Of a stretch of 35,518 nucleotides of DNA, positions 13,731 through 15,372 are shown in pieces. Origin of the DNA: Xanthobacteraceae bacterium (GTDB taxonomy: Bacteria; Pseudomonadota; Alphaproteobacteria; Rhizobiales; Xanthobacteraceae). Both the position numbers and the translations under genes were made by a program. Positions within the stretch are counted from its first letter, which is position 1; each line of letters begins with the position of its first letter. The notes below the pieces were generated by a model. The model did no database searches. It was not told where the DNA came from and saw nothing but the letters and a program-made list of their open reading frames with translations. Location of the stretch: contig JASHOR010000171.1 of assembly GCA_030041005.1 (NCBI GenBank), forward strand, positions 1 to 35,518. The letters are read 5' to 3'.

Positions 13731-13893
13731 CTAGTGTCCCGATTCCGAAGTTCGCATCATTATGCGGCCCCTCGTTTGCGAACTTCGGAATCGAAGGACA
13801 CTGGCAACTTATTGATCTCGTGTGGCTTTGGTTCAGAAATCCGCATGACGAGGTCGCGGCAGAAATGATGCGAACTTCAGAACCGCCACACTA
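13731..13893. repeat. Dispersed palindromic repeat, copy A
   Basis: It consists of two palindromic modules. The first, at 13732-13802, has arms from AGTGTCCCGATTCCGAAGTT and its inverse ending GGACACT. The second, at about 13819-13893, has GTGTGGC...GTTC and GAAC...GCCACAC arms. Bases 13731-13847 match 30702-30819 in reverse complement with two substitutions and one single-base gap. It fills the space between imuA and the ClpX-zinc-finger gene. Short frames through it are repeat translation and not genes. Confidence 0.92.
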
Positions 13894-13917: not shown

Positions 13918-13946
13918 TTGACACCGACGACGTCAGGGTTTACCTG
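13918..13946 (+). promoter_or_regulatory. Candidate promoter of the ClpX-zinc-finger/HTH gene
   Basis: A consensus -35 TTGACA (13918-13923) is followed after 17 bases by TACCTG (13941-13946), a weak -10. The -10 lies inside the first of two tandem palindromes, so a protein bound there would compete with RNA polymerase. The call rests on similarity and spacing only. Confidence 0.4.
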
Positions 13947-13966
13947 ACAGTCAGGGTTGACCTGAC
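13932..13966. promoter_or_regulatory. Two tandem 17-bp palindromes (putative operators)
   Basis: GTCAGGGTTTACCTGAC (13932-13948) and GTCAGGGTTGACCTGAC (13950-13966) differ at one base. Each has GTCAGG/CCTGAC arms of six bases around five. Their centres are 18 bp apart, nearly two helical turns, so two dimers would bind on nearly the same face. They end 19 bases before the ATG of the zinc-finger/HTH gene. I saw no other copy in the window. Confidence 0.75.
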
Positions 13967-13985
13967 ATCAGAAAACGAGGTCGTC

Positions 13986-14384
13986 ATGGCCGAGCCAGCA
14001 GCACATGAAACAGAGGCGACGCCAACGAAAGACAGCGCCGGGCGAACAAAAACCCTTTACTGTTCCTTCTGCTTCAAATCGCAGCACCAGGTGAAAATGC
14101 TGATCTCCGGCCCAGCAAGCCTCTTCATCTGTGATGAGTGCGTCGATTTGTGCAATGAATGCATTGCCGGCCGCTTTCCAGACAAATCGAAATTCCGCTC
14201 TCCCGAGGAATTGCCGACCGAACGGCTGCTCGAGCGGCTTCAACCCATTGAAGAGACGGTCCAGGGCAAGGGCAATCAACTCCAGTCGGTTGTCGATCTT
14301 CTTCGATCGCGCCAAGTGAGTTGGGCGCAAATTGGAACCGCGTTGGGTATCTCGCGCCAATCCGCATGGGAGCGGTTCAGCTAA
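13986..14384 (+). CDS. Small ClpX-type C4 zinc-finger protein with C-terminal helix-turn-helix
   Basis: A 132-residue soluble protein. Residues 24-62 form a ClpX N-terminal C4 zinc-binding domain, with C26-x2-C29 and C49-x2-C52 and the hallmark [12 protein letters not shown]. There is no AAA+ ATPase module. A helical linker (about 72-105) leads to a compact helix-turn-helix at about 109-131, [20 protein letters not shown]. In ClpX this zinc domain dimerises and binds adaptors and substrates, so a DNA-binding protein that docks to ClpXP partners or simply dimerises through zinc is conceivable; this is inference. ACGAGG lies 5 bases before the ATG. Two tandem palindromes upstream suggest autoregulation. 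It is divergent from imuA. Confidence 0.85.
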
Positions 14385-14454: not shown

Positions 14455-15372
14455 ATGCCGGAAGCCGACAGGGAAGGGGAACGCTACGCCGTCGACCAGC
14501 CGCAGCAGACTCCCGGATTTTTCCTCAAGGGGACACACCAGCTCGACTGGGGCATGAAAAACCGCATGGCGCGGGTGTTCGATCCGCGGTCCGGCCGCAC
14601 CGTCATGCTGGCCATCGATCACGGCTATATCCAGGGCCCCACCACAGGCCTTGAACGCATCGATCTCTCTATCGTCCCCCTGCTGCCCTACTGCGACGCC
14701 TTGTTCTGCACGCGGGGCATATTGCGCACGCTCATCCCGGCCGAGTGTCAAAAGCCGATGGTCCTGCGCGCCAGCGGCGGTCCCAGCATCCTGCGCGAAG
14801 AACTGTCCGACGAGCAGATCGCGCTCGACATGGACGATGCGGTGCGCCTCAACGCCGCCGGCGTCGGCATTCAGGTGTTCATCGGCGGCGAGCACGAGAC
14901 GCGCTCGGTGCACAACATGACCAGGCTGGTCGATGCCGGCTTGCGCGCCGGCGTACCGGTCATGGGCATTACGGCCGTCGGCAAGGCCATGGCACGCGAC
15001 GCCAAATATTTCCGTCTCGCCTGCCGCATCATCGCCGAACTCGGCGCTCAATACGTCAAAACCTATTACGTCGACGACGGCTTTGAGACGGTCGCCGCTT
15101 CATGCCCGGTGCCGATCGTCATGGCCGGCGGCAAGAAGCTGCCGGAACTCGACGCACTGACCATGGCCTACAACGCCGTGCAGCAGGGCGCCTCCGGCGT
15201 CGACATGGGCCGCAATATTTTCCAGTGCGAGGCGCCGCGCGCGATGATTCAGGCAGTCGCCGCGGTCGTGCACAAGAACATGAAGCCGAAGGAAGCGTTC
15301 GATTTGTTCAGGTCGCTGAAGGCGAAGGAAGAAAATGCCGGAGCAATGGCGTTTCGCGGCGCGGCCGAATGA
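14455..15372 (+). CDS. lsrF: LsrF-like class I aldolase/thiolase
   Basis: A 305-residue TIM-barrel enzyme of the DeoC/FbaB aldolase group, closest by eye to LsrF, which cleaves the phosphorylated product of autoinducer-2 with CoA. Long segments agree with what I recall of LsrF, including [38 protein letters not shown] and [13 protein letters not shown]. The Schiff-base lysine is K202 in [10 protein letters not shown]. None of the other lsr genes (kinase, transporter, LsrG, LsrR) is near, so the substrate may differ. GAGGTG precedes the ATG by four bases. Confidence 0.85.

Follow-up and report, generated by a model that had tools for sequence, protein, structure and literature searches.

Mycobacterial ClpC2 (Rv2667) is the described case of Clp decoy sensing combined with the soaking up of an antibiotic (PMC10030653 and PMC12913811, in the parts available to us). 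According to the available portion of PMC10030653, ClpC2 is an autorepressor that acts through the sequence CGTCAAC-N5-GTTGACG, which in many species occurs twice over the promoter; cyclomarin releases ClpC2, and ClpC2 then sponges cyclomarin off ClpC1. The autorepression and the cyclomarin sponging are also treated in the available portion of PMC12913811. The same portion of PMC10030653 describes structures of residues 4–72 (a proteolysis product) and 94–252, reports that the R57A variant is monomeric, and places the contact with DNA at R185/R189 in the Clp_N part, the double mutant having bound less well; the results with R57A and with the C-terminal domain alone pointed its authors to a need for dimerisation in high-affinity binding.

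RelI (Rv2664) is the antitoxin of RelS, and PMC13284704, in the part available to us, links RelI to ClpC2, states that short RelI homologues mostly adjoin RelS toxins, and doubts any DNA binding by RelI. The N-terminal zinc-binding domain (ZBD) of ClpX (PF06689; 1ovx, 2ds5) can dimerise in isolation and is essential for substrate recognition and for adaptors (PMC9035409, available portion). Here we analyse a protein that joins the ClpX ZBD to the helix-turn-helix (HTH) module of ClpC2 and RelI.

Domain architecture of the ZBD-HTH protein

The window, by which we mean the whole 35,518-nucleotide stretch of Xanthobacteraceae DNA that was analysed, contains an open reading frame at 13986–14384 (+ strand) that encodes a 132-residue protein and whose ATG start is preceded by no other start codon in the open frame. 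Residues 25–61 (14058–14168, + strand) match the ClpX-type C4 zinc-binding domain of Pfam (PF06689, zf-C4_ClpX; E = 1.2e-15). The same residues match ClpX chains in the PDB (E = 5.6e-16) and, in Foldseek, the ClpX ZBD crystal structures 2ds5 and 2ds6, the Foldseek list being headed by five ClpX structures with 42–67% identity. The domain is the same as that of ClpX, but, unlike in ClpX, it is fused to an HTH and has no AAA+ ATPase: Pfam finds no such module after the ZBD in the 132-residue protein, and the NCBIfam clpX models match residues 21–75 only, far below cut-off. At the 37 aligned ZBD positions, compared over sequences having the same spacing (78 of 89 from the family, 7 of 8 from ClpX), the family majority residue is the ClpX majority residue at 26, and 22 of those 26 are not zinc ligands.

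AlphaFold predicts helices at residues 78–108, 113–120 and 124–131 (pLDDT 86.7 for the full-length protein and 97.5 for the HTH alone). The first, a long helix (14217–14309, + strand), is a predicted dimerisation helix with invariant R107. Residues 113–131 (14322–14378, + strand) are assigned to an HTH from the AlphaFold model, from conservation, and from profile matches to solved structures, the best being RelI 9sdc (E = 6e-13), followed by the ClpC2 N-terminal fragment 8ada (E = 5e-4), for which the match ends at residue 72, directly before the recognition helix. The recognition helix of the window protein is RQSAWERF (14355–14378, + strand). Pfam alone gives a sub-cut-off HTH match (HTH_23, E = 0.022), and a fold search with the HTH alone returned no match with E < 1. 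The results bear out the original prediction of a ClpX-type C4 zinc domain and an HTH with no ATPase, by Pfam, by the RelI and ClpC2 profile matches and by AlphaFold, and they argue against an ordinary helical hairpin in place of the HTH: the helices model as an HTH, and the best Foldseek matches, albeit with weak E-values, are mostly DNA-binding proteins. Among the matches listed from the open-licence PMC literature we recognised no paper on a protein that combines a ClpX ZBD with an HTH, and a search of a defence-system library with three family members gave no matches.

The HTH module can be placed in register with that of ClpC2, a group that comprises Rv2667 and its relatives in Streptomyces and Mycobacterium. 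ClpC2-type proteins and the ZBD-HTH family have the same spacing between the tryptophan of helix 2 and the recognition helix; R57 of ClpC2 aligns without gaps to R107, which is invariant in 90 of 90 sequences, and D46, the partner of R57, aligns without gaps to position 96, which is acidic in 68 of 90 and glycine in the window protein. ZBD-HTH proteins resemble ClpC2 in having the same HTH module, in gap-free register and with the dimer arginine conserved, in having paired GTCA-N9-TGAC palindromes over their own promoter, and in carrying a Clp unfoldase N-terminal domain that is detached from any ATPase. They differ from ClpC2 in that the putative sensor is a ClpX ZBD located N-terminal to the HTH, whereas in ClpC2 it is a ClpC1-type Clp_N located C-terminal to the HTH; in that the half-site is GTCAGG rather than GTCAAC, within the same 17-bp geometry; and in that they occur in Alphaproteobacteria as well as in Actinomycetota. 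RelI has the same HTH module, but it has no ZBD and is paired with the RelS toxin, whereas ZBD-HTH proteins have no family-wide partner; moreover, the authors of RelI found no inverted repeats upstream (PMC13284704, available portion), whereas the ZBD-HTH operator is conserved.

The HTH profile was run against the genomes of ten relatives, and of the 20 non-ZBD loci examined eight are of ClpC2 type, all with two GTCAAC-N5-GTTGAC sites; Clp_N was confirmed by Pfam in both of the ClpC2-type proteins, among the eight, that were tested. Paired sites of GTCAA type are present at 9 of the 20 loci, namely the eight of ClpC2 type and L119, which has the same HTH joined to DUF3887, a third kind of partner domain on the module, and two upstream GTCA-N9-TGAC sites of GTCAAG type. 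The other 11 of the 20, which are more distant, have no such pair, and the rule breaks outside the ClpC2 and ZBD types. We infer, by analogy, that the ZBD-HTH protein works like ClpC2 without being a ClpC2, because two of the features of ClpC2 that were tested for, the Clp_N domain and the GTCAAC operator, are absent: Pfam finds zf-C4_ClpX in the window protein in place of Clp_N (PF02861), and the operator has GTCAGG half-sites.

The comparison bears also on where ClpC2 reads DNA. The recognition helix in ClpC2 relatives is (T/S)(K/R)QAA(Q/H)KRF, and its position suggests that the recognition helix of ClpC2 lies in the N-terminal module at about residues 73–82, in the gap between the two crystal structures (M. 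tuberculosis residues 73–93 being placed by alignment). The HTH is the likelier reader of DNA because the HTH and the geometry of the operator are common to ZBD-HTH proteins and ClpC2 and the Clp domain is not, and the dimer requirement of ClpC2 fits the HTH as reader. The result with R185A/R189A speaks against contact through the N-terminal module alone, and would have to be an indirect effect.

Paired candidate operators over the putative ZBD-HTH promoter

Upstream of the gene lie two exact GTCAGG-N5-CCTGAC palindromes, neither assigned to a strand: operator 1 (13932–13948, GTCAGGGTTTACCTGAC) and operator 2 (13950–13966, GTCAGGGTTGACCTGAC), the latter over the expected transcription start. 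The two operators differ at a single spacer base and are spaced 18 bp start to start, exactly as predicted from the window for a pair of 17-bp palindromes; start-to-start spacing of 18 bp is found at 7 of 91 ZBD-HTH loci including the window, every one of them proteobacterial. The candidate promoter (13918–13946) consists of a −35 element TTGACA (13918–13923, + strand), a 17-bp spacer, and a putative −10 element TACCTG (13941–13946, + strand). The candidate −10 element sits in the right arm of operator 1, in agreement with the overlap that had been predicted, although it is weak and was missed by a consensus promoter scan, which called no promoter-like site and so made no call for this promoter. 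The arrangement TTGACN-N17-TACCTG recurs, among the 91 loci examined, at L008, L009, L010, L014 and L015, with 18-bp spacing at L012. Considered by itself, the number of palindromes in the window is not striking: a scan that allows up to two mismatches gives three matches, as compared to 0.94 in shuffled sequences, and 10 of 100 shuffles reach that number.

To define conservation of the operator we used a set of 70 ZBD-HTH loci spanning proteobacterial and actinobacterial members, made up of the window, three loci from its family, and 66 loci from the best 80 of 571 candidates in a genome-collection search (the other 14 of the 80 being ClpX). A site that matches at least 10 of 12 positions lies within 200 bp upstream at 67 of these 70 loci, mostly drawn from the best 80 of 571 candidates, so the palindromes do precede the homologues; the upstream operator is exact at 60 loci, and two or more sites are present at 62. 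The rest of these 70 loci, 493 kb in all, contains 45 operator matches, and no operator is present upstream of any of 16 clpX genes (two from the window's own genome; mostly gammaproteobacterial by title; 156–200 bp of upstream sequence each). The three loci that have no such site are L005, the sole ZBD-HTH row with GTCAAC half-sites, present upstream as the variant GTCAAC-N5-GTTGAC; L033, for which just 3 bp of upstream sequence is available; and L053.

Addition of loci from further searches and removal of duplicates gives a set of 91 distinct proteins, for which a GTCA-N9-TGAC palindrome is present within 260 bp upstream in 83, with two or more sites in 61. The eight that have no site are L033, L048, L053, L054, L065, L177, L178 and L179, all but L033 having full upstream sequence; L048, L054 and L065 have near-matches at 11 of 12 positions, and L053 has none. 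L178 and L179 have a degenerate ZBD and no upstream operator, and have one GTCA-N9-TGAC just 3' of the gene. Near-identical repeats that were removed as duplicates (such as L161–L163 and L166–L168) have sites. Three proteins missed by the motif filter fall outside the count of 91: L157 (recognition helix RQTAWERF) has two sites; L176 lacks both the first CxxC and an upstream site; and L141 is divergent (recognition helix HQIAQERF) and lacks a palindrome, its upstream frame resembling, by eye, the end of a small membrane protein of multidrug-transporter type. Copies on viral contigs, also outside the count, have two sites each (L191 and L192), and the viral-contig matches L193 and L194 have the HTH and lack both the ZBD and the site.

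Searches of whole genomes indicate that the operator is nearly confined to the ZBD-HTH gene. In the 4.9-Mb genome that contains the window, the only two occurrences of the exact pattern, even when R/Y is accepted at position 5, are those at the window promoter, and a backward control occurs 0 times. Allowing one mismatch gives 8 sites, as compared to 7 for the backward control; one-mismatch sites being at control level, a wider regulon in this genome was dropped. In 14 chosen relatives' genomes there are 31 exact operators, 23 of them at a ZBD-HTH gene (assigned by position and sequence), which leaves 8 elsewhere, below the 22 matches of the backward control. Five of these 8 sites were inspected (L092, L098, L100, L102 and L107), and all overlap open frames longer than 450 nt, a property that is not discriminating, since sites at the genes' own promoters overlap such frames too. 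Because the exact pattern is unique to this promoter in a 4.9-Mb genome and is conserved upstream in two phyla, we conclude that the presence of the operator at ZBD-HTH genes is more than chance.

The best-supported interpretation is an autorepressor that has itself as its only clear target. DNA binding by the protein would follow from its likeness to ClpC2, and autorepression, which the original prediction had proposed, is very probable, being strongly supported by conservation of the operator across phyla, by the near absence of other sites, and by HTH homology to ClpC2. For a repressor that acts on itself alone, its own product is suggested as the response.

Variation in the recognition helix is associated with variation in the half-site. 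Proteins of S type (RQSAWERF or KQSAWERF) have GG at half-site positions 5–6 in 230 of 240 half-sites; proteins of A type have AG in 31, GG in 16 and other sequences in 7 of 54 half-sites; and ClpC2 types have AC in 24 of 24 half-sites (half-sites GTCAAC throughout, from the six of the eight ClpC2-type proteins that passed the filter). At least one half-site with A at position 5 is found for 8 of 70 S-type proteins versus 13 of 13 A-type proteins (Fisher p = 4e-10). The pattern is suggestive of a residue-to-base code S126-G5, A126-A5 and K129-C6, the K129 part being based on L005 and the ClpC2 types; the association is large but mostly inherited, with only 2 supported independent pairs on the tree (and 5 unsupported, with a mean of 1.3 in the expected direction and 0 in the opposite direction).

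Distribution and genomic context

ZBD-HTH proteins are sparse in Alphaproteobacteria and commoner in one class of Actinomycetota. In the class Alphaproteobacteria, 15 of 385 genomes passed the threshold, which we read, on the basis of frame length and query coverage, as at least 4 with ZBD-HTH (window included) and 11 with ClpX. The window's own family has ZBD-HTH in 4 of 198 genomes, and a different query at the level of the order gives 6 of 397, the window's genome being counted in both. In the actinobacterial class the number is at least 21 of 197 genomes, seed genome included. One member, L065, from a metagenome bin, is labelled Bacillota. In a tree of 90 members, for which few columns were available, the named phyla are largely separate.

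The window's own genome has two ClpX matches (L002 and L003, on contigs C175 and C186), with nearly identical N-termini and with one in a shorter frame, which may represent a duplicate, a contig-edge effect or contamination. Small genes that match the ZBD also occur in phages and phage-like plasmids of E. coli, P88 and D6 among them (records H15–H17, H26–H40 (plasmids) and H42–H49 (phages)). Their annotations are ClpX C4-type zinc finger protein, carboxylate-amine ligase or hypothetical protein, and they may encode phage-side ClpX decoys. At L153 and L192 the ZBD-HTH gene lies antisense inside a cluster of phage-tail type. The neighbours at L153 match GTA-gp10 (PF11836) and two tail proteins, one of the tube and one of the completion type, the flanks of L192 are those of L153 by BLAST, and the arrangement looks like that of an accessory gene inserted into a gene transfer agent.

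In the window the divergent neighbours are genes for ImuB (IMS domain) and a DnaE2-type polymerase; the frame taken for ImuA has no Pfam match at 1e-5. Between imuA and the ZBD-HTH promoter lies an imperfectly palindromic, MITE-like repeat of 162 bp (13732–13893), which is present in 44 near-full-length copies in the window's genome (94–100% identity, window copy counted), some of them in tandem. A link to SOS mutagenesis, implied by the original prediction, was rejected because this repeat intervenes and because the imuB-dnaE2 neighbourhood is not shared in the family. Indeed, clustering of neighbour frames gave no gene common across the ZBD-HTH family. The two largest clusters (53 and 48 loci) read as antisense frames of the ZBD-HTH gene itself; the next clusters are mostly confined to Nonomuraea, including a Nonomuraea block; and ORFs of short-chain-dehydrogenase type, recognised by eye, occur at 10 loci (8 in a second clustering) in scattered places and on both strands. 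With no partner gene common to the family, the product itself is the likely effector.

Proposed function of the ZBD-HTH protein

We propose, by analogy, that the ZBD-HTH protein is a sensor and decoy for ligands of the ClpX ZBD, and is thus the ClpX-side counterpart of mycobacterial ClpC2; we assign this proposal a probability of about 0.58. According to this proposal, a ZBD-HTH dimer would use its C-terminal HTH to bind both palindromes over its own promoter, with half-site GTCAGG, and binding over the −10 element and the start site would keep expression low. The ZBD would be a detached copy of the docking platform of ClpX, such that a binder of the ClpX ZBD that becomes abundant (an adaptor, a substrate, a phage protein, or an inhibitor, for example a natural product) would bind the ZBD-HTH protein as well. 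The ligand-bound protein would loosen from DNA, the gene would be derepressed, and fresh ZBD-HTH protein would soak up the ligand, sparing ClpX. Ligand sensing and sponge action would have their precedent in ClpC2, and the analogy has a limit in that Clp_N and the ZBD are unrelated domains. Given the retained ZBD and the parallel with ClpC2, it is plausible that the protein may talk to ClpXP or its adaptors.

The invariance of the C4 site among aligned family members, and a regulation confined to the gene itself, would fit also a simple buffer or a sensor of metal or redox state, in which loss of zinc or oxidation of cysteines unfolds the ZBD and frees the DNA, the resemblance to ClpX being mere ancestry. 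We consider this unlikely. The 22 non-ligand positions that keep the ClpX majority residue exceed what a bare zinc site would appear to require; the exact operator occurs nowhere else in the window's genome, so that no metal- or oxidant-response gene there carries it; and ClpC2 carries the same HTH with Clp_N. We know of no zinc site in Clp_N, which would place zinc outside the shared design.

It is improbable to the same degree that the protein acts on ClpX itself, with its ZBD pairing with that of ClpX and blocking adaptor docking, or recruiting ClpXP, or with its own degradation reporting free ClpX capacity. That isolated ClpX ZBDs can dimerise (PMC9035409, available portion) and that the fold of this ZBD matches 2ds5/2ds6 speak for such an action; it overlaps, however, with the sponge proposed above, and sequence cannot separate the two.

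The gene that follows in the window offers a further explanation, to which we give little credence: that the ZBD is a structural dimerisation domain only, and that the protein represses a downstream operon in the ordinary way. A gene for an aldolase of the DeoC/LacD family (14455–15372) begins 70 bp past the ZBD-HTH stop and is possibly read through from the ZBD-HTH promoter, and an acyl-CoA-synthetase-like gene, recognised by eye, lies downstream at four other, alphaproteobacterial loci (L009, L011, L012 and L014), which makes co-regulated genes possible in a subgroup. However, no downstream gene is family-wide, and the HTH module has a dimerisation signature of its own, R107, so that the ZBD would not be needed for dimerisation. 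Least probable is a RelI-like antitoxin that neutralises a linked toxin: among relatives of the HTH with a solved structure RelI is the best match, but short RelI homologues mostly adjoin RelS toxins (PMC13284704, available portion), and here the clustering of frames gave no ORF of at least 40 residues within 700 bp that is common to the 93 loci examined.

Returning to the proposed sensor and decoy for ClpX-ZBD ligands, its broadest form is that two phyla keep a ClpX-specific sensor-sponge, in which the detached docking domain of ClpX rides on an autorepressor that is its own sole target; this we hold tentatively, at slightly short of even odds. The operator motif allows members of the family to be recognised, and the comparison with ClpC2 gives a testable correction to the site at which ClpC2 contacts DNA. 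If the broad form is true, the ZBD-HTH protein would be usable as bait for ligands of the ClpX ZBD, and natural ligands that attack the ClpX zinc domain would be implied (antibiotics, proteins of phages or rivals, or overflowing adaptors). Together with ClpC2, ZBD-HTH proteins would then represent a general plan of defence in which a common autorepressor module carries decoy N-domains of Clp unfoldases, and the use of decoys to sense agents that target proteases would be a general strategy, Gram-negative bacteria included.
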